In this document: positions 51,201 to 64,000 of the stretch, piece by piece | Layout of the letters: each line of letters begins with the position of its first letter | Numbering within the stretch: the stretch's first letter is position 1 | Assembly: GCA_963971285.1 (NCBI GenBank) | Contig: OZ020256.1 | Coordinates: forward strand, 7,380,501 to 7,444,500 | Source: Astropecten irregularis | Taxonomy: Eukaryota > Echinodermata > Asteroidea > Paxillosida > Astropectinidae | DNA: 64,000 bases | Reading direction: 5' to 3' | Position numbers and translations under genes: made by a program | The notes under the pieces: generated by a model | What the model was told of the DNA's origin: nothing | Database searches by the model: none | Seen by the model: the letters and a program-made list of their open reading frames with translations, nothing else

Positions 51201-54200
51201 ATCATCTTGTCTCTATTTCCCCAAACTAATCAGTCTAATTTTGAAGTTCTCAGCATTAAAAAAAAAGACTACATGTATGCTCTAAATTTCAGTTTGTTAA
51301 TTTAATAAAGGGCACTCTCAAAAGAAAATTAAAACATCTTTGCGAACATTTGATGGGGGGGGGGGGGGGCACCAAGGCCATGACCAGGGCAACAAAGACC
51401 ATGGTCTCTGTGAATGTGCAGGGATGTATTGTAGGTGTACATACAATGCTCAGTATTATTAGTTGAATATTTCTATTCGTTTTGTTATGACAGGTGGGGT
51501 TTTCACATGTCACAACTGCATGAGTTGTTTGATTACGCCCAGGCCTCTATTTAAAAGAAAATCCATAACTGAAAAATTCCAGGGAAATTACTGTTCAGTG
51601 TTCAGGGTGACTGGAAGGTGATAATTGTATGCAAATGCAAAGCTCATTGTAATAATTGTACCTCTGCTACAACTAAATGATTAAATGTATATCTGCAAAA
51701 TCTAAAAACCCTATCCACAATGGACTTTTTGTCGTAAAATTTACCAAGTACTTATATTATCGCATATATGTGAAGAGCAAACAGTCTCAATGACATTTTC
51801 AGACCCACGTTCAGTTTCTTTCTTTCTTTCTTTCTTTTTTTTATGTTTGAATTGTACAGCGCTGCTGAATATTTATTATAGAAATGGTGCTTTACAAAAG
51901 TAATAAATGTTAAATGTTAAATGTTAGTGCATGGCCAAACATTGCTCAGGAGAGGTGGCAAATGGTTGCTTTCACCAAAATCATTGTAACTTCTACCAAT
52001 ACTAATGCTGCATTGCAGCCCCGTGTAGGATGGGTTATAAATCCTTTGTAACTCGAGTTACGACCAATCATAGGGCTTTGTGAGATCAACCAGTGTTCGT
52101 GGGTAAGGGATGCACAAGGAAAGTGTGCATATAGCCCAAGTGACACTACAAATGAGCTGGGCCCATAACAAACAAACAAACAACATTTGGTAAAATTCTA
52201 CTGTTTTCCCTTTCACCAATTGATGCCTTGGTAAAATCTGCCCAAAAGCTCCGAGTGTACACACACAGCTTTATTTGAACACTCACAACTTGGTGAATTG
52301 TGGTGACAGATTGTCTCATTTGTCACATACATACAACTGTAACTTTATATTTTACACCAGGACTTAGTGCATGGACAAAACACTGTTCAGACAAAATAAT
52401 ATTTCATGGGATTTCTTTGTTTTGTTAATTGCTTTTCACCCTGTACGCTGTCACTGCAGCAATTCAATGGATTAGGTTGTGTTGTTTGATCCAAAAATAA
52501 TTATTAGTGGGAATAAAATCCACTCTGCTAACTGAAATCAATATTCCATTTAATTTATGCAGGAACTGATAACAACACAGCAAAGCTTCACAAATGCCCT
52601 TGTGCTATACACCAGATGTAAACAATGGAAATTGGCTATATATACAGGATTGATTTTTACCAGCACATACTAAAGTGTGTTTATTCAGTTGACAGTACAC
52701 TAATAAACCATACTATTGGAATACATACATCATCTTACTCACACTGTAAACTTTCCAGTTTTTAACTGCTTTGCTATCTTTGCTGGTAACTGACTAACAG
52801 TAACTGGACACTCAATATGCATGAAAGAGTCTACATGTTGGGCCCAATTGAATATGTTGAATAATATTGGGGGGTTTTGTGGACGTAAATAAATTTTTAA
52901 TTTATAGTAAAACAAGTGAAGCACATGTATTGCAAGTACATGTATAAAATGGGTATAACTCTTCATTCGCATTGGTTTGTGAAATTGCTAGATAAATTTA
53001 TGAATCCCAATTAGTAACAAAACTTTCTACTTACTTTTTATCTTGAATGTTAAGACCCTGGTTTGTAAGATCACCCTATAAGGAGGAATAAATATGACAC
53101 AGCATTTTACAAATATCAAGACAAAAATGCACCGGAAAAATTATAATTGCTTCAAAACATTTCATGATCTAAAACACACTCCGTCAGACCGCCATACGGT
53201 AAGACCGTGAATATATCAAATTTCTAGGTAATTGATTATTAGGGACACCACGGTACCAACATAGTACTGGACAGCTCAGTTGGTAAGAGCGCCGATACGA
53301 TTTTCCGGAGGTCACTGGTTCAAATCCCGCTCCAGTCAATGTTTTCTTTGTTCACTTTTTAATGACTGAAATAATGGGGGAGGGGGTTAATACACATCAT
53401 GACATATGTGTCATCAATTCATACAAAAATGCTAGAAAACATTAATCTTGCACATGACTAATTGTGAACTACATGTACATGTAAGTCCTTATAAAATTGA
53501 GGTTTTTTAAATACAACAAAATGGCTTACATTAAATTTACATGTAAACAGCTAAAATACACTTTGCATAATTCATAATCTTTTCTTTTGCAAGTTTGCTT
53601 TAGTTTTCATGTATCTAGAATTTGTGCTCAATTCATTTATTTTTAATTCATTCATTAAAAAGCTATTTAAATAATGAAAGTCTTTCAAAGTATTGAATAT
53701 GTCTGGAAATAAATTTTAAATGTAAATGTACCTTAAGTGTAACTTCCTCAACGAGATGGCGCAATTCATTGAAGTCTGTCTGGACAAATGCTGCAGTTAT
53801 TAAAAAAAGAAAACAAAAACATTAAGACAAATTATTGTCTAAATGGTTATCAAGATTTCACCCAACACTACCATTAATCTTAAATTGTGAATCAATCATA
53901 ACTTCTAAGCAAAGAGTGATGTCACAACACAAATCACTATGGTGATGCTGACAACTCATCTTAAGATTAATCTTAGTGCTTTGTGAAATCCAAGTCTGCG
54001 TTCATTCATAGAAAGAGAAACCAAGTACTTCATATTTTTCTGTCTAATGCAATACGTTTGTGTTGGGTATTTATGGTACAATCTGAAGGAGGGTCATTAA
54101 TGTTTTAGTTTGACAAAAACAAGTATGGGATATGGGTTTCGGCTGTGAATGTTCCAACTCAATGAAAAATCTGTTTGAATATGAAACAAAAATTCAGTGC

Positions 54201-55692
54201 GTTTGTCAAGCGCACTGAATTTTTTCAAACTCCCTCCCAACAAAAAACACATTGCCGCTACTAAAGCTTTCAGAGTATGGAAAAATGTTTGTGGTCTCAT
54301 AAAACCAAAAGAAATGCTGGTTTGATCAAATAGCAAAATTGCTGATAGAGAACAAGGTGCAGGATTGGCAACAAAAATATCAGACGCAAAGTGGGTACAT
54401 ATAACAAACACACCATTTTGTCATTTGGCATGTGCTCAAAGCCAAAAACTCAAGAAAGTGACATTTTGCACAAGTTTGGTTTTTATCACATTTGACTATT
54501 CTCATTACTACTACAAATTTTGTTTTCAAAATGTAAATCAAAAAGACTCTGCATAAATAGACTCATAACACAGAATAAGCAAAACTGTCCTCTTATATCT
54601 GCATCGGACAAGGTAGGTAAGCTTTTTCCCAAGAGTAATAACCCAAATGGCAGATTGGCAGTTCACATTTTGAAGCAAAATTAAGACCAGACAATTTTAG
54701 AAGAAATAAATGGAACAAGGGTCCTGTCATTGTCAATGAGTGTCGTTTATAAACAAAGTGGAAATGAAACAATGGTGGAAGTACTATTAATTAGAATCCT
54801 TCCCAAAGGACAAAACCAAATATCTTGAGATGACACTGACAGGATATGACATTGTTTCCTGTAAATGAAATCAACATTGGTTTGGCCTTGGACATTCCTT
54901 TCAATTCACTCAGCATAAACACGGCCAAGTAAACAATCAGCCTAAACTGACTCAGTTCTGTCAAAATTGTGGCAAAATTTGAAGGAAAAAAATGGCTTGG
55001 AAAACACGGCATTCAGTGTGAATTTATAGAATATTTATGCCATGCTTCTTATTGTTTATACATAGGCCATGATGTGATCATGCACACGTACATGTAGATG
55101 ATAGGCCTACACCCATGATGATCAAAAAAGGAAGTAAGCATACATGTGTACACGTAATGTGTACAGTATAGGCTGGGTATTAAAATTGTAAAAACAATCA
55201 ATGAATCATGTCATGTGTATTAAATATTGGTAGGGCCTAAGCCAAACAATGAAAAATTAAACGATTACTTTGAGAAATTGTGACATTTTGTAAATGTCCA
55301 GGTAATGAAAATTGTATGATGAGAGAGATTTTGTATTTTAAAGGCTAATTTGATGGTTAGCAACGGTATATCGATCGAGCGCTGCGACCGTGCTGCCTCC
55401 ATTGACTTTGTACAGTTCCTCGCTGATCGTCTGCTCTAATGCAATACGTGCACTGTACATGCAACACTGACGAATGTAGCTGCCTGTGCGTCAGGCACGA
55501 ATTTACAATTTTCACTGGCAATTTTCAGCATTTTACATCGAATCAAACCATCAAAAAATGACACTCACCTTGTCCCTGTGCTTTTACTGTGTCGAGGTGA
55601 GTTGGGAGTAGTTGTAGAATGCTCAGGGCAAGGGTAAGCCACATATGTGCCATTCCGTTACTGTGTAACTCGTTTCTCCCGAAAACCGCCAT
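1..55692 (-). CDS. TMEM131: TMEM131 homologue, 27 coding exons, 3' end outside window
   Basis: Type I membrane protein of the secretory pathway. In animals the family binds procollagen through a luminal PapD-like domain and the TRAPP complex through its cytoplasmic tail, promoting collagen export from the ER. The joined exons read: signal peptide (about 1-40), PapD-like domain (about 92-190, containing LPPMLDFGE, PPGGNTTFE and FGVGVPNPYRLRPFLGA), a block with EMYSSGGELHLELPTG and FIRIKTN, further Ig-like strands (MLDFGTLRS, PYQAHVL, IHVYTGQL, LPIALYQDP, RNNLTILDAFMVRGQG, NGYDCDGYGFKVLQC, FTPDFTMSR), one transmembrane helix (about 1114-1136) and the start of a Ser-rich tail. Every junction is GT/AG and every phase matches its partner. 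The order and spacing of these blocks follow vertebrate TMEM131 rather than TMEM131L. About 1267 codons are present; the stop codon and roughly 600 residues of tail lie to the left. Confidence 0.93.
562..742. repeat. Degenerate minisatellite of GGACAAACTGGAT-type units
   Basis: In intron 26. About 14 imperfect units of roughly 10-16 bp alternating GGACAAACTGG and GGATAAATTGG. The long minus-strand reading frame across it (383-712) is a by-product of the repeat. The rest of 225-900 shows nothing recognisable. Confidence 0.7.
901..1293 (-). CDS. TMEM131: TMEM131 exon 26 (transmembrane helix)
   Basis: Residues 1062-1192: FTPDFTMSRITRQLKVLTY, LIATLPPHMLSVC, ALPRPQWEHL, then the single membrane span YIISVILMGILFLGILTASY (about 1114-1136), so the N-terminal 1,110 residues are luminal and the rest cytoplasmic. 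After the helix come LKRFDLRNIASG, as in vertebrates, and a Gly-rich run (GSGGGGASGGGGAK) that I do not recall from them. Acceptor CGGCAG, donor GTGAGT. Confidence 0.97.
1665..1827. mobile_element. Foldback MITE, 57-bp inverted arms
   Basis: Left arm 1665-1721 (GGCGATTCACAATAGTGCGG...) and right arm 1771-1827 are imperfect reverse complements around a 49-base centre. The structure is typical of a small non-autonomous DNA transposon; no target duplication was obvious. Confidence 0.7.
2090..2285 (-). CDS. TMEM131: TMEM131 exon 25
   Basis: Residues 997-1061: PPNFTVKRSFTLKNTGQLPI, INGYDCDGYGFKVLQC, LELAPNETKRLDI. The NGYxCxGYGFxVxxC block with its two cysteines is a family signature. Ends phase 2; GC|T completes Ala with exon 26. 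Confidence 0.97.
2443..2592. mobile_element. Compound hairpin element
   Basis: Outer arms CATTTTGCATATGAC (2443-2457) and its complement (2578-2592) enclose a long stem (CACATTGACTGAGTAGGACG...). The right arm holds a second copy of the ACGCCCTCGCTTGAC segment, so the left arm can pair with either of two partners. Probably a MITE with an internal duplication. Confidence 0.65.
2946..3085 (-). CDS. TMEM131: TMEM131 exon 24
   Basis: Residues 950-996: NNLTILDAFMVRGQGARGEL, then SSNLLFELKPTHLVDCD. RNNLT-x-x-D-x-x-x-V-x-G-x-G is a hallmark of both TMEM131 and TMEM131L. Acceptor TTTTGACAG, donor GTAAGT. Confidence 0.96.
3434..3609 (-). CDS. TMEM131: TMEM131 exon 23
   Basis: Residues 892-949: GSSGKCLKNNSCGVIEEMFG, then KPHHNVTVSIGFKP and ERISLMLIR. 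Runs into the conserved RNNLT of exon 24. The intron to its left (3086-3433) holds nothing I recognise. Confidence 0.93.
3660..3770 (+). repeat. SINE-like fragment
   Basis: Contains a Pol III B-box-like GGGTTCAACCC (3690-3700) followed by TGTCCTTGAGCAAGGCGCTT (3723-3742), a phrase common in short interspersed elements of aquatic animals. No A box or complete unit was recognised. Confidence 0.35.
4238..4304 (-). CDS. TMEM131: TMEM131 exon 22
   Basis: Residues 869-891: RFDPELIETDDPGVFFLANN then TDR. A short exon in a variable loop; both splice sites are strong (TTTACAG and GGGTAAGAG) and the phases fit. Confidence 0.88.
4584..4693 (-). CDS. TMEM131: TMEM131 exon 21
   Basis: Residues 833-868: ISEVQILNPSDSLVLVQLLP then IALYQDPTSVLDFLSD. 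Matches NPADVPVYVQFIPLALYSNP of vertebrates. Acceptor CCCCCTCAG, phase 2 end. Confidence 0.94.
4999..5346. mobile_element. AAGGTA-family MITE, copy a
   Basis: One of the dispersed units of about 350-370 bp. Starts AAGGTACAGTACATGATTGG and ends ACCAATCATGTATTATACCTT, i.e. terminal inverted repeats of about 20 bp. Inside it carries the family words GTATGAAGATGGTG, GTAGAAACATACC, CCACCTGAAATG and TTTATCCAGA. Confidence 0.75.
5503..5638 (-). CDS. TMEM131: TMEM131 exon 20
   Basis: Residues 787-832: VFNATLKLTSNLVKDKEIPV, LEWPRLIRQDKLEFPLTYIE. Corresponds to the family's TAELSWPSILSSPRHLKFPL. Acceptor TTTCAG, donor GTAAGT, phase 0 end. Confidence 0.92.
5823..5890 (+). repeat. Retroelement-type conserved tail motif
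   Basis: Contains TTTGAGAAAGATCCTGCTAG (5837-5856) followed by GGTCGAAATCTCAGG. This 'GAGAAAG...CTGCTAG...TCGAAA' phrase recurs in invertebrate repeats and, inverted, at 56010-56050. Family not assigned. Confidence 0.35.
6396..6513 (-). CDS. TMEM131: TMEM131 exon 19
   Basis: Residues 748-786: DGEVWLSSLALPDETQDVDR, LFYNHLRNRWQSLEQTGKT. It occupies the place of the vertebrate segment DLHQSLFKGWTGI and is only weakly similar. Phases 1/2 match both neighbours; acceptor CTATAG with a pyrimidine tract. Confidence 0.88.
6842..6999. mobile_element. Short MITE with CCAGGGGTC ends
   Basis: Starts CCAGGGGTCAATTTCACCAA and ends TGACATCGACCCCAGG. The interior has several CGTA...TACG complementary words (CTATCGATCGTAGG). 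A degenerate relative appears at about 52004-52096 and perhaps at 53860-54000. Confidence 0.55.
7207..7562. mobile_element. AAGGTA-family MITE, copy b
   Basis: Same family and orientation as the unit at 4999-5346: AAGGTACAGTACAGGATTGA at the left, ACCAATCCTGTATTATGCCTT at the right, and GATATGAAGATGGTGCTGGT inside. Confidence 0.75.
7613..7694 (-). CDS. TMEM131: TMEM131 exon 18
   Basis: Residues 721-747: VGRIVFDPKAACEEEDLCYV then GLSTQSL. The paired cysteines in FDP-x5-C-x5-CYVGL are conserved in the family. Ends phase 1 (G|AT gives Asp with exon 19). Confidence 0.93.
7897..7968. repeat. 36-bp tandem duplication
   Basis: Two adjacent identical copies (7897-7932 and 7933-7968) of a unit beginning CCTGAACCAAACAGATTGTG. 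A recent local duplication inside an intron. Confidence 0.85.
8020..8293 (-). mobile_element. tRNA-like (SINE-type) repeat, copy 1
   Basis: On the minus strand it reads GATAGCTCAGTTGGTAGACC (A box) and GGTTTGAATCC (B box), then the family tail CAATTTTACTTTGTTCACTT. The part at 8150-8293 (TTTGTTCGTTTGGCAGTCAT, CATGGGGGATCACTCAAAGA) is shared with the copy near 57050-57170, so the repeated unit is longer than a tRNA. It overlaps no exon. Confidence 0.65.
8559..8714 (-). CDS. TMEM131: TMEM131 exon 17
   Basis: Residues 669-720: GSTQSVSLTLVNNFSHRMKL, then RFYHRLPKKTPAIEIDP. Matches the family's SLNIMNSFSQKVKI and RFYYKRL block. Phase 0 on both sides; donor GTAAGT. Confidence 0.93.
9009..9200 (-). 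CDS. TMEM131: TMEM131 exon 16
   Basis: Residues 605-668: FSVLRLDVKAPLTEG, LGEVVIETPQERLSI, GCLGFKPEHIIPRPAFP. Corresponds to the family segment ending in CFPKHVVLPPSFP. Phase 0 on both sides; donor CCG|GTATGT. The intron to its right (9201-9593) shows no recognisable element. Confidence 0.92.
9594..9716 (-). CDS. TMEM131: TMEM131 exon 15
   Basis: Residues 564-604: VPIQTFSCNLDDCEAVVLGV, then HDVFSIKRKS. Phase 0 on both sides; acceptor CTCTCAG, donor GTGAGT. This is a divergent part of the family, so the call rests on ORF, sites and phase. Confidence 0.88.
9930..9988 (+). mobile_element. tRNA-like repeat, 3' fragment
   Basis: B-box half only: GGTCGCAGGTTCGAATCCTG followed by CTCCAGTCAATTTTC and the tail CACCTTTCAATAAATG, matching the family at 8020 and 53270. 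Confidence 0.55.
10148..10252 (-). CDS. TMEM131: TMEM131 exon 14
   Basis: Residues 529-563: YFIHSDNQNEFDFGVMSVGD and MLVTLVNANPID. It joins VYTGQLQ of exon 13 directly, as in the vertebrate protein (VYTGFLDYF), so no exon is needed between 10253 and 11164. Confidence 0.93.
11165..11335 (-). CDS. TMEM131: TMEM131 exon 13
   Basis: Residues 472-528: VSGFDKTLVIKPQETD, MSIVFTP, MSIHVYTGQLQ. The acceptor is ATAATAG before GTATCAG; the alternative AG eight bases downstream would break phase, so the upstream one is chosen. Donor GTCAGT. Confidence 0.92.
11666..11693. repeat. (ATCA)n microsatellite
   Basis: Seven uninterrupted ATCA/CAAT units in intron 12, directly beside the inverted tRNA-like pair. 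Confidence 0.9.
11718..11912. mobile_element. Two tRNA-like heads in inverted orientation
   Basis: Left head (minus strand) has GGATTCGAACCAGCGACCTC (11731-11750) and an A-box complement near 11780 (ACAACTGAGCC). Right head (plus) has GGAGGTCGCTGGTTCGAATC (11851-11870) and CCGGTCAATTTTT. The two B-box regions are reverse complements, forming a foldback. Confidence 0.6.
11968..12130 (-). CDS. TMEM131: TMEM131 exon 12
   Basis: Residues to 471: CDQQSKLFYLTPS, VVLTNYFNFTLVIHQVSFPE, DVKNIFK. Matches the family block LTNTFSFAILIHDVLLPEE. Acceptor TTGCAG; donor AAG|GTAACA is suboptimal but gives phase 0. Confidence 0.94.
12181..12395. mobile_element. Short inverted-repeat element
   Basis: Left end TGAATTCGAAGTTTGGGCGA; right end, read on the other strand, TGAATTCTTCAAAAGGGCGA. 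Interior carries further GGCGAC/GTCGCC words. Probably a MITE of unassigned family. Confidence 0.5.
12396..13310. other. Intron 11 remainder, no feature seen
   Basis: No exon with suitable splice sites, no conserved peptide and no recognised repeat. The minus-strand frames near 12418-12728 lack any family similarity. Confidence 0.5.
13311..13522 (-). CDS. TMEM131: TMEM131 exon 11
   Basis: Residues 347-416: SITPMRANNALTIDFKP, VALVTFHPLKA, GKLIVKTKDKN and IPYQAHVLQ. Ends in phase 2 (GG|C) and joins exon 12 exactly. The surrounding introns (12131-13310 right of the 12181-12395 repeat, and 13523-14037) show no gene or clear repeat to me. Confidence 0.95.
14038..14156 (-). CDS. TMEM131: TMEM131 exon 10
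   Basis: Residues to 346: APGLYSSLEMLDFGTLRSLD, then PLYLLNTSPKSIHIV. The MLDFGTL motif starts a second Ig-like (ASH/PapD-like) module. Acceptor TTTTTTCAG, donor GTAAGT, phase 0 end. Confidence 0.95.
14326..14491 (-). CDS. TMEM131: TMEM131 exon 9
   Basis: Starts at residue 252 with EIPPYTTRSVMRASF, then NHTAFIRIKTN and LPVEVEVSS. The acidic RLDEEENEL stretch is longer than the equivalent human loop. Ends phase 1 at GTGAGT. Confidence 0.95.
14536..14612 (-). mobile_element. tRNA-like repeat fragment
   Basis: Reads AACAAAGAAAAATTTACTGG then GCAAGATTCGAACCGGCGAC: the tail and B box of the same tRNA-like family on the minus strand. It lies next to exon 9 but outside it. Confidence 0.55.
14874..15243. 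mobile_element. AAGGTA-family MITE, copy c (inverted)
   Basis: Starts TTTAAAGGTAGTATCATACT and ends AAGTATGATACTACCTTTAA, giving nearly perfect ends of about 20 bp. The interior has TGGATAAATACACCATTTCA and CACCATCTTCATAACCTG, the complement of copies a and b. Confidence 0.75.
15990..16183. mobile_element. Mariner/pogo-like MITE (TA-flanked)
   Basis: Ends are TACAGTGGAACGCCACTATA and, on the other strand, TACAGTGGTACGTTAATATA, flanked by TA. Interior CCAACACGCTGGGATGCACA and TTTGTTATAGGTCATT are typical of Tigger/pogo-related small elements. 194 bp, no coding capacity. Confidence 0.7.
16184..17109. other. Intron 8 remainder
   Basis: No coding or structured element seen beyond an (AAGC)n run at 17033-17048 and a T-tract near 16930. 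Confidence 0.5.
17110..17190 (-). CDS. TMEM131: TMEM131 exon 8
   Basis: Residues 225-251. Encodes VTEMYSSGGELHLELPTG followed by PQNLW, one of the most conserved blocks of TMEM131; it favours TMEM131 over TMEM131L. Phase 0 on both sides; donor GTAGGT. Confidence 0.96.
17457..17539. repeat. Perfect 39-bp hairpin with 5-base loop
   Basis: Arm 17457-17495 (AAATAATGTTAATAGGGATT...AGAGA), loop TAAAC (17496-17500) and an exactly complementary arm 17501-17539. Lies in intron 7. Could be a recent foldback insertion, a small-RNA precursor or an assembly/cloning fold-back. Confidence 0.85.
18231..18353 (-). CDS. TMEM131: TMEM131 exon 7 (PapD-like domain end)
   Basis: Residues 184-224, phase 0 on both sides. 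Contains FGVGVPNPYRLRPFLGA, nearly identical to the vertebrate protein, then SYSPLITMHNPYSSGLM. Acceptor TTTTGTCAG, donor ATG|GTAAGT. Confidence 0.96.
18354..19259. other. Intron 6, left part
   Basis: No exon or clear transposon. 19098-19130 (AAAGGTAGACTGGAGTGTAA, GATTGGTAAGG) resembles one end of the AAGGTA family. A plus-strand frame at 18704-19036 has no recognisable domain. Confidence 0.4.
19268..20206. mobile_element. hAT-like non-autonomous element, 939 bp
   Basis: Ends CAGTGTTGTATGACTCG and, reversed, CAGCGTTGTATCCGAG form hAT-type inverted repeats. They are flanked by an exact 8-bp duplication GTTGCAGC at 19260-19267 and 20207-20214, the hAT hallmark. Subterminal arrays of CTCGGCCTCGG/CGAGGCCGAG (19280-19425 and 20047-20195) face each other. 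No transposase. A second element is inserted at 19615-20007. Confidence 0.85.
19615..20007. mobile_element. TA-flanked MITE nested in the hAT element
   Basis: Perfect ends of about 26 bp (GCCCTGTCCGCACTGGACTT) bounded by TA on both sides. AAGTCCAGTGCGGAC recurs internally at about 19681, 19801 and, altered, 19911, so the end sequence is repeated inside the element. GC-rich compared with its surroundings. A decayed relative lies at 29156-29245. Confidence 0.8.
20215..22067. other. Intron 6, right part
   Basis: About 1.85 kb with no exon and no confidently recognised repeat. Some GTACATGT words and short T-tracts. Confidence 0.4.
22068..22181 (-). CDS. TMEM131: TMEM131 exon 6 (PapD-like domain)
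   Basis: Residues 146-183, phase 0 on both sides: VVPPGGNTTFEIVFLPRVPG, AENTIFIHTS, then PYQ. This is the core PapD-like strand pair of the family (PGGNTSFDVVFLAR, NTLFINTS). Confidence 0.95.
22543..22640 (+). mobile_element. tRNA-like repeat, 3' half
   Basis: AAGTTCAAATCCTGCTCCAG (B box) then TTGCTTTGTTCACTTTTCAA and AATGCAGTCAGTTTCTCTTG, TGGTTATTTGATG. The last phrase also occurs at 8325-8365, so it belongs to the same family. Confidence 0.55.
23394..23765. mobile_element. AAGGTA-family MITE, copy d (inverted)
   Basis: Best-preserved copy: TTAAAGGTATAATGCATGAT to TAGCTAGTACCTTTAA. Contains TGAGCTCAATCGGACATCTG, GACTCAATTTTTCTTATA and CACCATTTCAGGCGGAAATA. Both ends carry TTAA, suggesting TTAA as target or as part of the terminus. 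Confidence 0.8.
24530..24615. mobile_element. AAGGTA-family MITE, decayed fragment
   Basis: Fragment of one half with GAATCAGACATTGAAAGTAA and TGACCTTTACCAACCATG, just left of exon 5. Confidence 0.45.
24666..24789 (-). CDS. TMEM131: TMEM131 exon 5 (PapD-like domain)
   Basis: Residues 104-145: AIGMPEI, VFNPHPENTLRMLSISG, then HFHCSFFQDK. It aligns with the family's VGMPKM, NPSSEETI, HFHASFFQ block. Acceptor TTGCAG; donor GTAAAT. Confidence 0.93.
24790..25910. other. Intron 4, no feature seen
   Basis: No exon, tRNA-like module or inverted-repeat element recognised; only scattered GTACATGTAC words near 25540. Confidence 0.4.
25911..25997 (-). CDS. TMEM131: TMEM131 exon 4
   Basis: Residues 75-103. 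Encodes the first PapD-like strand, LLPPMLDFGE, matching the family's PPxLDF motif. Acceptor TTTCAG, donor GTAAGT. The split codon CA|T joins exon 5 to give GEHAIGMPEI. Confidence 0.9.
26068..26290. repeat. Dispersed repeat, copy 1 of a pair
   Basis: Shares with 38355-38560 the phrases AAAGGTTTACT, AATACATCTGTATTG, ATAAAA(C/T)TCAAC, TATCATTGTTTGTGCTAAA, GTATTGTAC-type sequence, AGCACCCCA and GCGACGAAAAAC in the same order. Family unassigned. Confidence 0.65.
26780..27274. mobile_element. hAT-like element with CAGGGTT ends, 495 bp
   Basis: Starts CAGGGTTCGAACATAACACT and ends (reversed) CAGGGTTTCCCCATAACTTT. Subterminal repeats of ACTGGTCC, GACCAGTCAAA and TGGCCA lie at both ends. It is flanked by TAAAT on both sides (26775-26779 and 27275-27279), shorter than the usual 8-bp hAT duplication. 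No transposase reading frame. Confidence 0.7.
29156..29245. mobile_element. Remnant related to the 19615 element
   Basis: AGCCCCATTCAGACTGGACT then TTTTTTTGG and AAAACTCACCGAGACAAC, TTTTTAGTCCAGT, parallel to the left third of the TA-flanked element at 19615-20007 (GACTTTTTTTGGGCAAAGTA, CCGAGAC). Right part absent or unrecognisable. Confidence 0.5.
29868..31896. mobile_element. 2-kb element with eight TGTAATGTCAGTCACG repeats
   Basis: Ends TGTAGTAGGGCAATTCCACG and, reversed, TGTAGTGGGCAATTCCACCG. Inside are eight same-orientation copies of (T)GTAATGTCAGTCACG at 30235, 30400, 30417, 30447, 31483, 31499, 31684 and 31863, two pairs being adjacent. A degenerate reading frame lies in the middle. 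No clear target duplication. Likely a DNA transposon of a family I cannot name; the repeats could be transposase binding sites. Confidence 0.7.
30736..30990 (+). pseudogene. Basic-protein fragment inside the 2-kb element
   Basis: 84 codons; the informative part starts near the ATG at 30817 and reads MPETGAERQAECRKNVKERG with further Arg/Lys/Glu-rich sequence. The 'AERQ..CR....' lysine/arginine-rich layout resembles the N-termini of uncharacterised repeat-encoded proteins of cnidarians and echinoderms. Probably a remnant of the autonomous element's protein; the function is unknown. Confidence 0.35.
32571..32925. mobile_element. AAGGTA-family MITE, copy e
   Basis: TGTACTGTACAGTACAGGAT at the left, ACCAATCGTGTATTATAA at the right, with GGGTATGAAGATGGTACTGG, CCACCTGAAATGGTGC and TCCGATTGAGCTGAGATTT inside. 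Confidence 0.7.
38284..38318. repeat. (CATGTA)n microsatellite
   Basis: The longest uninterrupted run of the palindromic CATGTA/TACATG hexamer in the window, about six units. It is an extreme case of the motif scattered through this intron. Confidence 0.9.
38355..38560. repeat. Dispersed repeat, copy 2 of a pair
   Basis: AAAGGTTTACTAGTACAATC, AAATACATCTGTATTG, TTATCATTGTTTGTGCTAAA, AAGCACCCCAATGTTTGCGA in the same order as 26068-26290. The right boundary is uncertain. Confidence 0.65.
48092..48265. mobile_element. AAGGTA-family MITE, copy f (truncated)
   Basis: TTAAAGGTACAATACATGAT, GGTAAAGGTCACAGGACTGC, GAGCTCAATCGGACATCTGA and GACTCGATTTTTCTTATAAA match copy d. The homology stops near 48265 and the right terminus is missing. 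Confidence 0.65.
48881..48909. repeat. (ACCAA)n microsatellite
   Basis: Five ACCAA units then ACTAAACC; simple repeat in intron 3. Confidence 0.85.
49518..50344. mobile_element. Mutator-like element, 827 bp, 9-bp target duplication
   Basis: Long inverted repeats: left arm about 49518-49700 and right arm about 50209-50344 share TAGCCTTGACCAAGGCTATG, AAGCTGTTCCCGGCGAGCGA and GATCATAGCCTTGACGCAA. The left arm has an extra CGTACCGTACGTACC-type insertion. Direct repeats CTGTTTGGT flank it exactly (49509-49517 and 50345-50353). Long arms plus a 9-bp duplication indicate the Mutator superfamily. The element is GC-rich, has no transposase and carries a gene fragment. Confidence 0.82.
49919..50122 (+). 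pseudogene. Captured RecQ-like helicase N-terminal fragment
   Basis: Inside the Mutator-like element. A single frame runs from ATG (49919) to TAA (50120-50122), 68 codons, broken only by one TAG at 50018. It reads MAVSRTRLVRYPRSK, KLQIEDFPLE, stop, then RTALQYFLEGHDDLVNLPT and RFRKS. The second half matches the layout of RecQ-type helicases just before and at the Walker A motif (helix, EGxD, xxLPTGxGKS). Both motif glycines are replaced by Arg, so no ATPase activity is expected. A GTAAGT overlaps codons 16-18. Identification is from motif layout only. Confidence 0.5.
50354..53034. other. Intron 3, right end
   Basis: Holds a G-run (about 51356-51370), a (TTTC)n tract (51814-51842), three AAATGTT units near 51905 and a degenerate MITE near 52004-52096. 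One minus-strand frame ends at a strong GTGAGT (52741-52972) but is not needed by the gene. Nothing else recognised. Confidence 0.45.
53035..53075 (-). CDS. TMEM131: TMEM131 exon 3 (41-bp micro-exon)
   Basis: Encodes GDLTNQGLNIQDK plus two bases of Asn. Acceptor CTTATAG, donor GTAAGTAG. The phase-2 end matches the one-base start of exon 4, giving QDKNSVKTLGLG across a 27-kb intron. It corresponds to the variable spacer before the first PapD-like strand, so it is supported by phase and splice sites more than by similarity. Confidence 0.7.
53270..53385 (+). mobile_element. tRNA-like (SINE-type) repeat, best head
   Basis: GACAGCTCAGTTGGTAAGAG (A box) and CTGGTTCAAATCCCGCTCCA (B box) with ACTGGA/TCCAGT pairing as an acceptor-like stem. 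The family tail CAATGTTTTCTTTGTTCACT follows. It looks most like a tRNA gene of all copies, but the shared tail and missing clear anticodon arm point to a SINE. Confidence 0.65.
53732..53790 (-). CDS. TMEM131: TMEM131 exon 2
   Basis: Residues 42-61, AFVQTDFNELRHLVEEVTLK, the N-terminal luminal segment conserved at the start of mature TMEM131. The acceptor is ACTGCAG. The donor (AAG|GTACAT) is weaker than the others but keeps phase 0 into exon 3. Confidence 0.8.
53791..55568. other. Intron 1
   Basis: No exon seen. The right end (about 55360-55520) is CpG-richer than the rest (CGATCGAGCGCTGCGACCGT, GCGTCAGGCACG), which could mark a regulatory region near the gene start. 53860-54000 has paired TTAAGATTAATCTTA-type words and may be an old MITE. 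Confidence 0.4.
55569..55692 (-). CDS. TMEM131: TMEM131 exon 1 (start codon, signal peptide)
   Basis: Residues 1-41. The ATG at 55692 has A at -3 and G at +4. A second in-frame ATG at 55653 also has a good context and begins directly before the hydrophobic stretch MWLTLALSILQLL, so either start gives a signal peptide. The exon ends in phase 1 at a GTGAGT donor; its last G joins CA of exon 2 to make Ala. The sequence reads VKAQGQ then AFVQTDF, like the processed N-terminus (AFVQ...) of vertebrate TMEM131. A 5' untranslated exon further upstream cannot be excluded. Confidence 0.85.
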
Positions 55693-55728
55693 GATTGCAA
55701 TAATTACATTGCTGAATTGCACACATTG

Positions 55729-55738
55729 TATATATACA
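55729..55738 (-). promoter_or_regulatory. Possible TATA box of TMEM131
   Basis: TATATATACA on the minus strand lies only 37 bases before the first ATG, so a start site 30 bases downstream would leave a very short leader. It fits the second ATG (55653) better. It may also be a chance AT-rich word. Confidence 0.2.
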
Positions 55739-55994
55739 CACACGCAAGGTGCATATAGCGCGCACATAATATTGCCGTGCAGCTTTGTGTGTTTGGTTGC
55801 ACGCTACATTATAGAGGGAGCCCTTGTAAGTTATGGGTTATGGTTGAGCCGTTTCCATCTCATAACCCCAATCACATCACAACAGATTGTTTACATTTTG
55901 TGGTAATTAACATGACAATAAAATATGACCTAAAAGATACTACGGAAACGAAGTGTGTAGTACCTGCAATGTATTAAGTTAATTTTTAAACTGT

Positions 55995-56160
55995 TTGGAG
56001 ATAGGAGGGCCTGACGCGTTTCGATCCTCTAGCAAAGATCCTTTGATTGAGAAAGTTAGTCCTCCGCGATCGAAAGGTGCCGCATCAGGCCCTCCTAACT
56101 CAATATTATTCCCCAAGCATTTAATGATCGAAACGAGCGCGTCAGGCCCTCCCGCAAGCA
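55995..56160. repeat. Inverted GGCCTGACGCG/GATCGAAACG repeat
   Basis: GAGGGCCTGACGCGTTTCGA (forward, 56006-56025) and ATCGAAACGAGCGCGTCAGG with CCCTCC (56128-56154) face each other, with a third GCATCAGGCCCTCC at 56083-56096. TTTCGATCCTCTAGCAAAGA is the inverse of the tail motif at 5837. Probably the remains of two convergent retroelement tails. Confidence 0.5.
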
Positions 56161-56520
56161 TTTTTATTTCTGATTATTTTTGGCTGATGAGCAGTTTGCA
56201 GCAATTTACTTGTATTAAGTTAATTTCTAAACAAACGTATTAAATAAGAAAACTAATTCAAAAACAATCCGGACAATCAAATGTATCAATCAATCAATCA
56301 AAAAAATTAATCTACCAATTTAACCAACAATACAAAAATGATTATGGGGTGAACTTTACACAAGGTTTTTCATAAGTCAGAAAAGTGGTATGATTGTAGA
56401 GAGTAGTTCTAAGTGGATGAGGATACTGCAAATCCAACACGATTCGACCGATTTCTCTGGTTAACATTATTTAAAAAAGTTTTTTGTAATATAAGATGAT
56501 CATCACTCCTGCCACTAACA

Positions 56521-56783
56521 GATTTCTGTTTCGGTATGCTACCAAAGTATGATAGTACCTTTAAGTCTTTTTGGTCACCGGTTTTACTCCTTTCTGGATA
56601 AGCATTAATAATAATAATATATATTACCACGATTTATAAAGCATAAATTTCAGGCAGAATTTTTTTTAACGGTACGTATATAATACATGTAGTATGTTTC
56701 TACCATTACAATCTTTATACATAGGTAAATCTGTGAAGATTTCTGTTTCGACGTAGGAATGCTAACAAAGTATAGTACTTTAT
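56521..56783. mobile_element. AAGGTA-family MITE, degenerate copies
   Basis: CCAAAGTATGATAGTACCTT, TTTCTGGATAAGC, AATTTCAGGCAGAA, GTATGTTTCTACC, GTAAATCTGTGAAGATTTCT and CTAACAAAGTATAGTACTTT follow the family order, with AT expansions. Confidence 0.55.
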
Positions 56784-56987
56784 AAATATTGCTCTATGAA
56801 ATCGGTCCATGGCGTTAATATTAGGTAGTATAGAAAAATACAAATAGCACTTTATTGACTAACTAGAGTTGTGCATAAGCTTTCGTAGCAACATCTACTT
56901 CATCAGATGCAATGAAGTAGCATCATCAGGCAAGTCCGGCTGTGTAGCCATGGGAAGGAAAATTCCTGAATACTCCGTACATATACA

Positions 56988-57175
56988 GGCGCTCTACCAA
57001 TTAACTGAGCTATCCAGCCCTACGTTAATCAATCAATTATCTTTGTTCGTTTGGCAGTCAGAAGCCATGAAACCACGCACACACCGCCATGGCCCAGGGA
57101 TCGTTTCGACTGATACACGCAGCAAGCTGCAACCTGGGAACGGTACATGGGGGGATCACTCAAAGAGGATAGGGC
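56988..57175 (-). mobile_element. tRNA-like repeat with long body
   Basis: GCGCTCTACCAATTAACTGA (A-box complement), then TTTGTTCGTTTGGCAGTCAG, AGCCATGAAACCACGC and CATGGGGGGATCACTCAAAG, shared with 8104-8293. The B-box half is missing or replaced at the left. Confidence 0.55.
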
Positions 57176-57283
57176 TTTTTAGCTGTTTCGCATGCAGCGA
57201 GACAGCTTTTGTTTTTCTTATTTTTTTAGCTGTTTCGCATGCAGCGGAACAGCTTTTGTTTTTCTTATTTTTTTTTTCTTTTT

Positions 57284-58529
57284 GGCTTTTCCGTGTTCAA
57301 CGGAAAAGGTATTGTTTTTGTTCTGATTTTTTTTTTTTTTCTTCTTCTTCTTCTTCTTCTTCTTCTTCTTCTTGTCGTTTGGAATTCCTATAGACAAAGC
57401 ACAGGGGCATTCTGCACCCCACTTTGGCCATTTTTAAACAGCCGATCTTAACCAAACTTGGTCAAAACAAAGTCCCTATATCGTCAATGTATGCCGAATC
57501 TTTTCGTCATCATGACGTCATCAGGTGTCACGTGACAGTGTCTTAAAGGGGCAAACTTCAGACATCAATTATGAACGAACCCTAAGTCCGATTGAGTTGA
57601 AACTTGTTATGTATCTAAGACGGGAAGTGTTATATCGAAAAATTGCAATGACGTCATCATGACGTCATTCCTTGATTTTTTATGATTTATTGAAATTTTG
57701 GGTCATTACAGTTCTTTTAACGATATCTTGTAAACGAAACAAGATATCTTTGAATTTCTTTTTGATAATTCTTCAGCATACACCATAGATGAACACTGTA
57801 TAGACAAAAATTCGGTGACGTCATCATGACGTCATAAAAAATGCAATTTTTATAACACATAGTAGGAACGGCCGATCGCCTTGAAAATTGGTACATTGGT
57901 GGATTGGAGGTTGGGGATTGTAATTCTGAAGAAACGTCAAGACAGCGTCATTTTTTTATTTTTTATGATTTTTAAAAATATTTTCACGCTATAGCCCATT
58001 GACTTGTACAGGGCAAACAGGAAGTAGCTCCTCATTTAAAAGTGGTAAGAGCTGTGATCATGATTCTTTCACCAAAAGTCAATGTTAGGCAAGGTCTTTC
58101 ATTGTGACACATTGCTTGACCTCTGTGACCTCTACATCCGGTCAAACAGGAAGTAGCTCCTTATTTAAAAGTGGTAAGAGGTATGATCATGATTCTTTCA
58201 CCAATAGACAATGTTAGGCAAGGTCTTTCATTTGTGATACATTGCTTGACCTCTACGACCTCTACTTCCGGTCAAACAGGAAGTAGCTTCTGATTTAAAA
58301 GTTGTAAGGGCTATGATCATGATTCTTTCGCCAAAAGTCAATGTTAGGCAAGGTCTTTCTTTGTGACAGAAATATGACCAAGTCACGTGAGTGTATGATT
58401 AAAGGTGAATACTTCAAAAGTATAAAACTTAAGATCTTAATCAAATGTCTTTGTGTGTATAAGGTTATGTTGATTTTTCTATAAAACGGAAAAGCCTTGT
58501 GTTCTGTTTTTAACAGACACAATTTCTAG
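57284..58529. mobile_element. Helitron-like unit A
   Basis: 5' hairpin GGCTTTTCCGTGTTCAACGG (57284-57303) plus AAAAGG; 3' end ACGGAAAAGCC, hairpin 58498-58521 (TGTGTTCTGTT/AACAGACACA) and CTAG at 58526-58529. Inside: a (CTT)n run, repeated TGACGTCATCATGACGTCA palindromes, CACGTGAC, and three tandem units of about 130 bp starting AAACAGGAAGTAGCTCC (58015, 58144, 58274). Confidence 0.6.
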
Positions 58530-58542
58530 TTACCTTTTTTTT

Positions 58543-59647
58543 GGCTTTTCCATGTTCAATGGAAAAGGTATTGTTTTTGTTCTGATTTTTTTTTCTTTTC
58601 TTCTTCTTCTTCTTGTCGTATGAATTCCTATAGACAAAGCACATGTGCATTCTAGGTGCCACTTAGGCCACTTTTAAAATGCCGATTTTAATCAAACTTG
58701 GTCAAAACAAAGTCCCCACAGCGTAGTTGGTTGCCGAAACTTTTCGTCATCATGACGTCATCAGGTGTCACGTGACAGTGTCTTAAAGGGGCAAACTTCA
58801 GACATCAATTATGAACGAACCCTAGGTCAGATTGAGTTGAAACTTGGTATGTATCTAAGTCGGGAAGTGTTATATCGAAAAATTGCACTGACGTCATCAT
58901 GACGTCATTCCCTGATTTTTTATGATTTATTGAAATTTTGGGTCATTAAAGTTCTTTTAACGATATCTAGTAAACGAAACAAGATATCTTTGAATTTCTT
59001 TTTGATAATTCTTCAGCATACACCATAGATGAACAATGCATAGACAAAAATTCAGTGACGTCATCATGACGTCATAAAAAATGCGATTTTTATAACACAT
59101 AGTAGGAACGGCCGATGGCCTTGAAAATTGGTACATTGGTGAATTGGAGGTTCGGGATTTTAATTATGAAGTTACGTCAAGACAGCGTCATTTTTTTATT
59201 TTTTATGATTTTTTGAATATTTTTCACGCTATGGCCCATTGACTAGTTGTACAGGGCAAACAGGAAGTAGCTCCTCATTTAAAAGTGGTTACAGCTATGA
59301 TCATGATTCTTTCACCAAAAGTGAATGTTAGGCAATTTCCTTCATTTGTGTCACATTGCTTGACCTCTGTGACCTCTACTTCCGGTCAAACAGGAAGTAG
59401 CTCCTCATTTAAAAGTTGTAAGAGCTAGGATCATGATTCTTTCAGCAAAAGTAAATGTTAGGCAAGGTCTTTCCCTGTGACACAAACATGACCAAGTCAA
59501 GTGACTTCAGATTAAAGGTGCACTCTTCAAAAGTATAAAGCTTAATATCTTAATCAAATGTTTTTGTGTGTATAATGTTTTGACAATTTTTTAATATCAT
59601 AAAACGGAAAAGCCATGTGTTCTGTTTTCAACAGACACAATCTCTAG
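58543..59647. mobile_element. Helitron-like unit B, close copy of A
   Basis: Head GGCTTTTCCATGTTCAATGG, then the same order of blocks as unit A (AGACAAAGCACATGTGCATT, AAAGGGGCAAACTTCAGACA, TTGGTATGTATCTAAGTCGG, GGAACGGCCGATGGCC). Two of the 130-bp units remain. It ends in the hairpin 59616-59639 and CTAG at 59644-59647. Head-to-tail after A with 13 bases between. Confidence 0.6.
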
Positions 59648-60853
59648 TTTTTTTTTTTTTTTTTCTTTTTCCACTTTTTTCCCATAGACATAACACAGGG
59701 GTTTTCTAAGAGCCACTTCTACCATTATGCCAATTCCAATCAACTTCATACTTGGCACGTAGTTAGACCAACACCCCGAATAGTGTCCCACGTATGTACG
59801 TCATCGTGACGTCATCACGTGCACAATTATGTCATCATAAAAGTGCACATTTTAGGGCTCTTTATCTCCGGAACGGCAAGTCCGATGCAGCTCAAACTTG
59901 GTATGTAAGTATATGGGGACGTGTTATAGACAAAAATTGCAGTCACGTGTTGATGACGTCATCATGTGATTTTATACGAATTATTCAATTTTTGGACCTT
60001 TTCTTTATATCTCATGAACGACAAATCGTATTTTCGAAATTCTTTCGGCAATATGTTTGTTAGGCTATAGGCACATGCCACAAAATACCAAAAAGGTGTG
60101 ACGTCATGATGACGTCATCAAAAAGCCGATTTTCTGATTCACATATAAGGGAATATCCGATGGTGATGAAACTTGGTGGGTAGGTAGGGAATGGTACTAG
60201 TATCCGAAATGTGAAGTGACGTCACGATGACGTCATCGGCTGATTTTTTTATTGATTTTTGAATAATTAATGTTGCAATTTTTTTCACAGAAACACATAT
60301 AAGCGAATATCCGATAATGATGAAACTTGGTGGGTAGGTAGGAAATGCTATTACTATCCCAAATGTGAAGTAACGTCACGATGACGCCATCGACTGATGT
60401 TTTATTGATTTTTTTGAATAATTAATTTTGCCATTTAGAGTCAAACATAACACAAAAGACGGTCTTTGGAACTTTTTGGACCGCTGATATGGCTATCTAT
60501 AGTAGTGGGCCAATTGTGTACGCGTGAACGGAGCACGACATAGCTAGAAAATCAATCATTTTGCTGTTTCCACCGCCCATATGCACAACCATACATACTA
60601 TGCGCGCTGGCCTATAGTAGACTCTGCCATTTCTGTGTTTCTCATGGCCGTGTGTATAAATCTAGGCCTATCTGTATGTGTTTTGATGGATGAGTGACGA
60701 CGCTCCTGGTAGTTGTTTAGGACAATTAAGACCGTACCGCTGATAAACTATTTCTCTGTCCTGGGTCAATTTTATATATATTATATGTATTTTCTAAAAA
60801 CGAAACAGCTCAGTGTTTGTTAACTACAAACACAGGTCTAGTTTTTTCTTTTT

Positions 60854-63050
60854 AGCTGTTTCGCATGCAGCGAGACAGCTTTTGTTTTTCTTATTTTTTT
60901 TTTTCTTTTTACCTTTTTTTTTTTTTTTTAGCTGTTTCGCATGCAGCGGAACAGCTTTTGTTTTTGTTATTTTTTTGGCTTTTTCGCGTAAGCGAAAAGC
61001 CTTTGTTTTTGTTATGTTTTTTTTTTTTTTTCTTCCTCATCTTCTTCCTAAATTCCCATAGACTTTACACAGGGGTTTTCTGGACCCCACTTTGGTCACT
61101 TTGAATCAGCCGATCTTAACCAAACTTAGTCTGAAGGAAGTCCATATAAGGTAGTTGTCTCCCGAAACTTTTTGTCATCATGACGTCAACGAGTGTCACG
61201 AGACAATGCCTTAAAGGGGCAAACTTCACACATCAATTATAAACGAACCCTAGGTCCGATTGGGTTGAAACTTGGTATGTATCTAAGTCGGGAAGGGTTA
61301 AAACGAAAAATTACACTAACGTCATTATGACGTCATCGTGCGTCACGTGACGGCAACTTAAAGGGGCAAAATTAACACATTAATTATAAACGAACCCTAG
61401 GTCCGATTCGGTTGAAACTTGGTATGTATCTAATTCAGGAAGTGTAATATGGAATGACGTCATCATGACGTCATCGTGCATCACGTGACTTCGCCTTAAA
61501 GGGGCAAACTTCACACATCAATTATAAACAAAGCCTATGTTCCATTGGCTTGAAACTTTGTATGTGTCTAAGTCGGGAAGTGTTATATCGAAAATTTGCA
61601 ATGACTTCATTGTGACGTCATCGAGTGTCACGTGACAACGCCTTAAAGGTGCAAACTTCACATATCAATAATAAATGAACCCTAGGTCCGATTGGGTTGA
61701 AACTTTGTATGTGTCTAATCCGGGAAGTGTTATATCGAAAAATTGCAATGGCATCAGCATGACGTCATCTTGCGTCACATGACAGCCCCTTAAATGGGCA
61801 AACTTTACGGCCAATTAAGAAAAAACCCGATATCCAATTTGGCTGAAACCTGGTATGTATCTAAGTCTGGAAGAGTTTATATAATTTTTGTTTAAATGCT
61901 AAAAAGGTGTGTCATGTGACAGGGCTTTTTTAAGGGGGCAAACTTTATATGCCGATTAAGAATTAACAAGCCCTAGAAGAAGCTCCTCATTTAAAAGAGG
62001 TAAGAATGAGAATCCAAATTTCTGAAGTAGCATTATTAAGAAGGCTTTTTATAATTATCATAATGCGGAAAAGCCATATGTGCTGTTTTCAACAGCCATA
62101 AACTCTAGTTTTTTCTTTCTTTTTTTTTTTTTTTTTTCTTTTTCCACTTTTTTCCCATAGACTTTACACAGGGATTTTCTACAAGTCACTTCTACCATTA
62201 TGCCAATTCCGATCAACTTTATACTTGGCACATAGTTAGACCACCACCCCGAATAGTGTCCCGCGTATGTACGTCATCGTGACGTCATCACGTGCACAAT
62301 TACGTCATCATAAAAGTGCAAATTTTAAGGCTCTTTATCTCCAAAACTGCAAGTCCGATACAACTCAAACTTGGTATGCAAGTATATGGGGATGTGTTAT
62401 ATACAAAAATCGCAGTCACGTGTTCATGACGTCATCGTGTGATTTTATACGAATTATGCAATTTTTGGACCTTTTCTGTATATCTCATGAACGACAAAGT
62501 GTATTTTCGAAATTCCTTCGGCAAAATGTTTGTTAGGCTACAGGCACATGCCGTAAAATACCAAAAAGTTGTGACGCAATGATGACGTCATCAAAAAGCC
62601 GATTTTCAGATTCACATATAAGGGAATATCGGATGGTGACGAAACTTGGTGGGTAGGTAGGGAATGGTACTAGTATCCCAAATTTGAAGTGACGTCACGA
62701 TGACGTCATCAATCGTTTTTTAATTAATTTTTGAATAATTAATTTTGCCTTTTCCCCAAAAAAACATATAAGCGAATATCTGATCGTAATGAAAGTTGGT
62801 GGGTTGGTAGGAAATGGTATTAGTATCCCGAATGTGAAGCGACGTCACGATGACGTCAACGACTGATTTGTTTTAATAATTAATTTGGCCATTAGGGTCA
62901 CATATATATAACACAAAACACGGGCTTAAAAACTTGATGGACCGCGGATATGGTTATCCGTAGTAGTGGGTCAATTGTGTACACGTGAACGGAGCATGAC
63001 CGGCTAGAAAATCAATCGTTTTGCTATTTCCACCGCTCATAGGCACAACC
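60854..63050. mobile_element. Nested Helitron/Helentron-like composite II
   Basis: Repeats the order of composite I: head 1 (60854-60880), head 2 (60930-60956), head 3 (60977-61001, GGCTTTTTCGCGTAAGCGAA...), inserted body, CTAG at 62105-62108, then the outer body (TTTCCACTTTTTTCCCATAG, CGTCATCGTGACGTCATCAC). The outer body stops matching near 63050, before the 3' hairpin, so this copy is truncated. Confidence 0.55.
60977..62108. mobile_element. Helitron-like unit C with internal tandem repeat
   Basis: Between head 3 and CTAG. From about 61140 to 61980 it holds five or six imperfect units of roughly 130-150 bp: AAAGGGGCAAACTTCACACA, ATTATAAACGAACCCTAGGT, CCGATTGGGTTGAAACTTGG, TATGTATCTAAGTCGGGAAG, TGACGTCATCGTGCGTCACG. 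The 3' hairpin uses CTGTTTTCAACAG. Confidence 0.6.
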
Positions 63051-64000
63051 ATAAAAGCCTGCTACTCGATCACGTTGAAGTCGCATCCTTCGCAATTCAG
63101 CACCCCAGCTGCCAGTACAGTATGGATGATAAGCCTCCCAAATATTTTTTATTAGCCTTTTGTCGAACAAAATACGCCAAATAAAATTCATGGCGCCCTC
63201 TGTTGGTCACACATTCTTAGCCCACGCGCGTGGCAGCGGTTCATTCTTATAGTAGTAGTTGCAAACGACTGATTGGAATCATTATTTTGTTGCGTAATGG
63301 TCGCCCTGCTGCAGTTATAAATATTCATCCCGATAATCCATCCCCTGTGTTCCATAAATTATTCATATCATAAGGTAAATTGATGACACATGCATTTTTT
63401 GTCTCCGCGGGAAATACAAATATATTGTACAAAATTACATGCTGAAACCACGAATGTGTTTATGTATTCGTTACAAAAATGTTTCAAGTGGCTGTCCGAG
63501 AGTTTGGTTGGTGTGGGGACCCAATATTTTGGGTTCTTCTAACACTCGCTTCTGCTAAGCTTATGGGGGGTCGAAAAACATGCACATTATAATAGCCCAC
63601 ACAACGCGTTTTTTATTTAATTGGCGCTTAATAACTGAAAAAAATCCAGTATTTTCACGAATTTTGGGGGGGCTAGAGCCCCCTTAGCTCCCCCCCCCCC
63701 CCCCGTAGAACCGCGCCTGCATGGTGGGGAAGGCAAGCCTAATTTGCATATTATCTATTTCATTTAATATTCAAGACTAATAAATGTATTATTTCCCCAA
63801 TTTCAGCCTCTGGCTGCGATGGAAAATGTTTTTAATAAACCATGAATAATAATATTACATGTAATTAAAAAGCGTTTTGAATGATTGAAGGCTGATTTCT
63901 CATTATATTTTCATTGAACTTTTTATTCTAATCAATGTAGAGTCCAAAAGAACACTACAGCAGTACATTATGTAAATTTTGTATTAAAACTGTTATTATT
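63051..64000. other. Right end of window, no gene
   Basis: No coding region recognised. 63480-63722 ends in a C-run after GGGGGGCTAGAGCCCCCTTA (63665-63684) and, read on the minus strand, starts GCAGGCGCGGTTCTACGG, a terminus style seen in dispersed elements of marine invertebrates; the other end was not found. Confidence 0.35.

Follow-up and report, generated by a model that had tools for sequence, protein, structure and literature searches.

The 64,000-nucleotide window analysed here, bases 7,380,501–7,444,500 on the plus strand of contig OZ020256.1 (C20) in the 475.7-Mb, 168-contig assembly of Astropecten irregularis, contains the left part of a nest of mobile elements. We consider it highly probable that this nest arose from a Helentron and HINE-type elements of the same build, which repeatedly landed in each other's T-tracts. 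The nest spans 57,179–85,398 (28.2 kb; coordinates above 64,000 carry the window numbering on rightward along C20) and comprises nine heads and nine tails, whose bracket pairing reads A1(A2(B1)(B2))(A3(A4(B3)))(B4(B5)) with a depth of four levels. All eight inserts occupy a T-tract that directly follows the head of another element, and a frame encoding a Rep/helicase/endonuclease protein is linked to the same ends.

The window holds seven hairpin-ended heads, four of them with AGCTGTTTCG and three with GGCTTTT, and four tails marked by CTAG, in agreement with a preliminary description of this DNA and with the tail positions given there (Table 1); two further heads and five further tails of the same nest follow to its right. 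Within the window alone, four A heads are accompanied by one complete A body. An interpretation of A1 and A3 as head-only scars, with bodies absent from the window, was dropped when both bodies turned up downstream. The A3 body, a 99% match to the young type, occupies 80,578–81,724 and is followed by further B heads, while the young-type body of A1 was forecast further right and then located at C20:7464754-7465898 (99%), with the B4 tail at 84,236 just ahead of it. Position 63,050 was likewise rejected as an element end, as A-like sequence continues there into sequence common with another locus, L019. The earlier proposal that each element had entered the T-tract inside the head of the previous element holds with regard to the tract, but not with regard to the order of parents: A2, A3 and B4 all sit in the tract of A1, and B1 and B2 both in that of A2.

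Table 1. Features of the nest, in window numbering (all positions above 64,000 lie to the right of the window).
Feature	Position	Strand	Remarks
A1, outermost element	57179..64000, continues to 85,398	+	young-type A head, AGCTGTTTCG from 57181; tail CTAG ends 85,398
A1 body	84,254-85,398, beyond window	+	99% body match; A1 T-tract broken by 3 inserts
A2, non-autonomous A	57226..60841	+	in A1's T-tract, broken by B1 and B2; head (AGCTGTTTCG) 57228, body 59671-60841, tail CTAG 60838-60841
B1	57282..58529	+	in A2's tract at CTTT/TTACC; GGCTTTT head 57284, tail CTAG 58526-58529
TTC microsatellite in B1	57339..57373	+	3' of B1 head
B1 central tandem repeats	58014..58368	+	130 bp, 2.7 copies
B2	58541..59647	+	in A2's tract, 3' of B1; GGCTTTT head 58543, tail CTAG 59644-59647
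A1 T-tract remnant	60842..60851	+	separates inserts A2 and A3; stitching restores T11 + CT5ACC
A3, non-autonomous, young type	60852..64000, continues to 81,724	+	in A1's tract at CTTT/TTACC; AGCTGTTTCG from 60854; opening 76 nt 100% identical to several single copies
A4, predicted Helentron	60928..64000, continues to 80,560	+	in A3's tract; ~18.5 kb without B3; AGCTGTTTCG from 60930
A4 Rep/helicase/endonuclease frame	67,117-77,037	-	3,307 aa, open
B3	60975..62108	+	in A4's T-tract; GGCTTTT head 60977, tail CTAG 62105-62108
B3 central tandem repeats	61174..61877	+	147 bp, 4.9 copies
A4 sequence 3' of B3	62109..64000	+	corresponds to A body positions 1-868 as far as 63,000; L019-shared sequence beyond

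Comparison of the element ends revealed that each tail bears an inverted copy of its own head type, in agreement with the matching inverted ends reported earlier. The 10-bp inverted repeat of family A reads AGCTGTTTCG in the head, where it begins 2 bases from the 5' end, and CGAAACAGCT in the tail, where the inverted copy begins some 41 bases before the terminal 3' CTAG. In family B, the corresponding 10-bp repeat reads GGCTTTTCCG in the head and CGGAAAAGCC in the tail, the B3 head being a variant, and the B ends follow the same plan as the A ends, with no whole autonomous B-ended copy among those read. DNA folding of five of the seven window heads and all four tails, each against 200 shuffles, gave clear stem-loops for the heads (z −3.5 to −6.3; shuffles as good in 0/200 for four heads and 2/200 for one) and weaker ones for the tails (z −2.5 to −4.4; 0, 3, 2 and 2 of 200 shuffles as good). 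A third head type, GACTTTTTCGCACTTTCGAGTGCGAAAAAGTT, was encountered on the plus strand of L016 (~1246) and L021 (~1078) as the innermost head in A stacks. It precedes antisense Rep genes, whose frames measure 3,127 and 3,063 aa (C25:4401700, C9:3980762), by approximately 10.5–11.5 kb and possibly marks a third autonomous family.

A 107-base query covering the heads of A3 and A4 gave 66 matches among the best 40 of 673 candidates; 20 of these loci were taken with about 1 kb of upstream and 8 kb of downstream sequence. Uninterrupted A elements of 1,235–1,254 bp were present at nine of these loci, six of the nine being 99% alike; L027, initially listed with them, proved to be nested and was set aside. 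Their tract starts with T4 G T5 C T2 A T11 C T5 ACC in seven of the nine copies (T10 in L025, altered in L026) and ends with Tn C T5 CCAC in all copies but L011. When the inserts of the nest were removed as TT...CTAG and the tracts rejoined, A1 without its three inserts read T4 G T5 C T2 A T11 C T5 ACC T31 C T5 CCAC, and A3 and A2 gave the same tract with T25 and with T10 and T23, respectively. B4 regained T14, as in B1, and A4 without B3 regained T11, yet it differs from L019 further right. Two inserts, A3 within A1 and B1 within A2, entered at the same point, CTTT/TTACC (the slash denoting the site of entry).

In the stitched tracts, no duplication of at least 2 bp was found, and a target duplication could not have exceeded a single T. 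All nine uninterrupted A copies have TT as their left and T as their right flank, as expected from the insertion between T residues that had been proposed together with Helentron-like ends and nesting, and no two of the joined flanks compared for eight of these copies are alike. At L023, where the tract is known, the right side consists of a single T before C, and the right flank of L011 likewise shows a single T; a TT duplication is therefore excluded at both loci. Throughout the genome, TT stands ahead of the inner head in 56 of 57 A-in-A junctions, the 57th reading AA; in 42 of the 56 this TT follows a T, and in the other 14 an A.

An element of this plan opens with 5'-TT and a hairpin head that includes a subterminal inverted repeat, continues with a T-tract and the body, and closes with an inverted copy of the head repeat and a 3' hairpin ending in CTAG. 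It inserts ahead of a T, the preceding base being T or A, and any duplication is limited to one T. The T-tract, located some 30–100 bp inside the element's own 5' end, most likely serves as a landing site for later copies in the same orientation, since the tract lies on the element's strand. Repeated landing would thus stack the heads and leave the bodies and tails to follow in mirror order. The ends, the bracket pairing, the restored tracts, the shared orientation and the linked frame are direct observations; we infer that the protein of A4 mobilises both families through rolling-circle replication and that the T-tract would be selected by its endonuclease.

The preliminary description had recommended a search for a linked Rep/helicase protein with the same ends, and such a protein is encoded in the stacked element A4, which bears both an A head and an A tail. 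Its open frame contains Herpes_teg_N-like (9e-9), OTU (3e-12), DUF6570, Helitron_like_N (4e-34), PIF1 (PF05970, 1e-25) and Exo_endo_phos domains (PF03372, 2.5e-7, 31.1 bits at a cut-off of 24.5, residues 2063–2248 of the 2,261-aa C-terminal piece) and matches PIF1 structures (best 2.5e-40) as well as Helraiser structures. Inspection by eye revealed the stretches SPHTHCLFW and AYVVSYMSK, which we take to be the HUH motif and the paired tyrosines. The 5' region of A4 and part of its frame match L019, the two frames being 99.4% identical over 2,595 bp, and between 56,001 and 83,900 no frame of at least 150 aa was found besides the Rep frame and one of 176 aa at 56863–57390.

A genome-wide search with the Rep domain PF14214 yielded 149 matches among the best 150 of 154 candidates and none in 14 control genomes; merging of neighbours gave 143 genes, and one match lies 6.7 kb past the window end. 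On contig C1, an exact A head located 3–25 kb away and pointing inward was found with Rep in antisense at 7/37 and with Rep in sense at 0/37 Rep places, the counts for heads pointing away being 2/37 and 2/37. Most Rep genes accordingly lack a nearby exact A head and probably belong to other head types. Same-strand Rep clusters were observed at C11:16.21–16.39 Mb (seven genes), C14:10.49–10.65 Mb (six), C15:21.49–21.60 Mb (five) and C20:6.83–6.90 Mb (four), all 22 genes having frames of more than 3,000 aa at a spacing of 19–51 kb.

The features of A4 thus comprise a Rep with HUH motif and two tyrosines, a PIF1-like helicase in the same frame, a C-terminal AP-type endonuclease, subterminal inverted repeats, a 3' palindrome, and insertion at TT or T-rich sites without target duplication of at least 2 bp. 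Judged from its sequence, A4 is a Helentron, as it carries the C-terminal endonuclease that the available parts of PMC4067079 and PMC5148889 name as the Helentron mark. A1–A3 have their ends in common with this autonomous partner and, in the sequence up to 83,900, no coding capacity, and are on the same grounds classified as its non-autonomous HINE-type kin. B1–B5, whose ends follow the same plan, appear to be of HINE-type build. B1 and B3, with similar ends, carry different satellite-like repeats (130 bp and 147 bp, respectively), which recall the central repeats of oyster HINEs.

With the Helentrons, HINEs and DINE-1 elements described in the available part of PMC4067079, the elements share subterminal inverted repeats that are palindromic and lie close to the 5' end and roughly 40 nt before the 3' end, the 3' palindrome, T-rich insertion, microsatellites, central repeats and a Rep/PIF1 protein with C-terminal AP-type endonuclease; the antisense position of Rep in A4 is also that of Helentron-Da-40. 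They differ from them in the 3' end CTAG, in the T-tract nests and in the OTU and Herpes_teg_N-like domains lying inside the 3,307-aa frame, whereas that text presents OTU as an additional open reading frame. The same part of PMC4067079 attributes clusters to termination bypass or adjacent insertions and does not mention nests formed in T-tracts. Helitron2 and the FoHeli elements of Fusarium oxysporum, as portrayed in the excerpts of PMC3627910 and PMC5148889, likewise have hairpins, here present at both ends, asymmetric terminal inverted repeats and insertion beside T-rich sequence; A4 departs from them in that its endonuclease is fused to the Rep/helicase, and the Astropecten locus in that a balanced four-level nest is resolved. 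For FoHeli, self-insertion has been proposed to explain multiple 5' termini within 200 bp, with one nested example and copies with an excess of heads (PMC5148889, in the text available).

The B elements fit the plan of Pacific oyster HINEs, with a left module of subterminal inverted repeat, inverted repeat and microsatellite, central satellite-like repeats and a right module of subterminal inverted repeat and palindrome; the accessible text of PMC7492417 could link these to no autonomous elements, in contrast to family A, whose autonomous member shares its ends. Canonical Helitron1, according to the portions of PMC5148889 and PMC3627910 at hand, shares the hairpin-preceded 3' CTRR, to which CTAG conforms, and a possible A-T target, but has a 5' TC without hairpin where TT and a hairpin were found here, together with an endonuclease. 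Among the listed titles and abstract openings of open-licence papers, no account of T-tract nesting was found, PMC5148889 being the one paper listed on nested self-insertion of Helitrons. The elements themselves are of a known kind, and the value of the locus lies in its unusually clear record of the T-tracts of kin serving as landing sites.

Nesting was also observed at other loci. Stacked A heads occur at ten of the 20 loci, and five of these stacks (L013, L017, L022, L023 and L027) close within the stretch and balance. L022 and L023 have the same make-up and different junction points, and therefore nested independently; L024 shows A bodies with heads outside the stretch. Surplus heads at L020, where the nest does not close within 9 kb, are not claimed as proof of chimeric elements. 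Exact patterns returned 597 copies of the 17-nt A head, 678 of the 20-nt A tail and 496 B heads of one subtype in the assembly, with reversed-pattern controls at 0. Among 75 exact A heads on C1, the nearest same-strand tail lies 1,150–1,300 bp downstream for 31, at 17–25 kb (the size of A4) for five and only beyond 60 kb for ten, and opposite-strand tails at the short distance were found for 0/75. A-head pairs less than 130 bp apart on C1 were on the same strand in 9/9 cases, against 0.018 pairs expected, as were B-head pairs in 12/12 cases among the first 100 B heads listed.

Stacked head pairs with a spacing of 37–67 amount to 57 A-in-A, 99 B-in-A, 9 A-in-B and 777 B-in-B (reversed-pattern controls 0), these being raw counts of places, not of independent events, without copy-number normalisation. 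They suggest a same-family preference, and inherited multi-headed elements would look alike. The rarity of A-in-B pairs beside the very common B-in-B pairs and the 99 B-in-A pairs may reflect target preference or multi-headed B copying.

The preliminary description had called the stack duplicated, and a duplication of one composite block could account for both head series: the order of the heads is repeated, and 59587–60593 and 62047–63053 are 87% identical. Divergence is uneven, however, as the A1 and A3 heads are identical over 47 bases, whereas 57175–57668 and 60848–61336 agree at 77% and the A-body parts at 87%. Moreover, the head spacings are 47 and 76, A2 without inserts measures about 1.26 kb against 18.5 kb for A4, and the second series lies inside A1, A3 and its contents being part of that element and A1 and A3 each owning a 99% young-type body. 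The term has accordingly been abandoned, and we regard such an origin, which the bracket pairing contradicts, as highly improbable. Tandem arrays could alternatively stem from rolling-circle read-through past the 3' end, as thought for Helitron arrays of bat and silkworm (PMC4067079, in the part available). Such a process would suit Rep genes 10–60 kb apart, of which 33/38 neighbours are on the same strand (11/17 at 60–200 kb and 26/61 at more than 200 kb), and tail-then-head junctions do occur (60841/60854; L024). Neighbours in Rep arrays also often agree in score and frame length (C11, for instance, has three with 3,714 aa, and C20 three with 3,326 aa), as local copying, a possibility for these arrays that weighs against their growth as nests, would yield. 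The nests read nevertheless show stacked heads followed by bodies in mirror order, inserts from different families and junction points that vary among loci, and read-through is a very unlikely source of them, though it may apply to the large Rep arrays.

Further points on the opposing side concern whether stacked heads always record fresh insertions. Many of them may have been inherited through multi-headed transposition, from an outer head to the first tail, or have arisen by T-tract slippage; multiple 5' termini with one 3' terminus were reported and modelled for Fusarium Helitrons in the available text of PMC5148889. On C1, 16 heads in seven A stacks face ten exact tails within 45 kb, tails equalling heads in one of the seven stacks. 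An exact pattern overlooks tails that have mutated, and the nests are made longer by B inserts, but the shortfall would also fit multi-headed copies of the kind modelled for Fusarium. The stacks at L016, L018, L019 and L020 (four of the ten stacked loci) do not close within the stretch, and L012 (reverse complement, 6084 and 6134) presents a stacked pair of A heads beyond which the sequence is unrelated, with no body or tail in the stretch. The abundance of B-in-B pairs points the same way. In addition, the 20-locus sample is enriched for stacks because the query itself carried two heads, and within a T run insertion may have duplicated 1 bp (a T). Set against inheritance of multi-headed copies are the balance of the window nest and of the five closed loci elsewhere, and the stitched tracts, which give back uninterrupted sequence. 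Such inheritance is possible for many of the genome-wide pairs and, as the source of many stacked heads, rather unlikely. The window nest itself is most likely an undisturbed product of self-insertion as proposed in the consulted part of PMC5148889.

Elsewhere in the window, matches to a TMEM131-type Ig-like domain were obtained at 14315–14725 and 897–1301, both on the minus strand and the second under the curated cut-off; they come from 10 of the 38 listed window frames, and the matching frames are likely host gene exons. Rfam returned no matches at gathering scores in 50000–64000, and ARAGORN no tRNA genes in the window.

Skipped termination has been the explanation given for clusters of rolling-circle elements, and self-insertion, deduced in retrospect, the one given for multi-headed copies. 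Because the T-tracts act as built-in empty sites, a single genome here suffices to read the ends, the insertion rule, the orientation and the nesting order directly, and A4, which combines these ends with an open Rep/helicase/endonuclease frame, is available for testing. The nest also cautions against taking piled-up heads that lack tails for truncated debris, as they can form the left edge of a long nest. We tentatively put forward that this lineage may accumulate mainly by self-landing, with 5' T-tracts as strand-specific docking sites and a same-family bias, such that clusters and same-strand arrays of intact Helentrons would build up by nesting, their heads gathered at one end, and not by terminator bypass, while host DNA would be spared.

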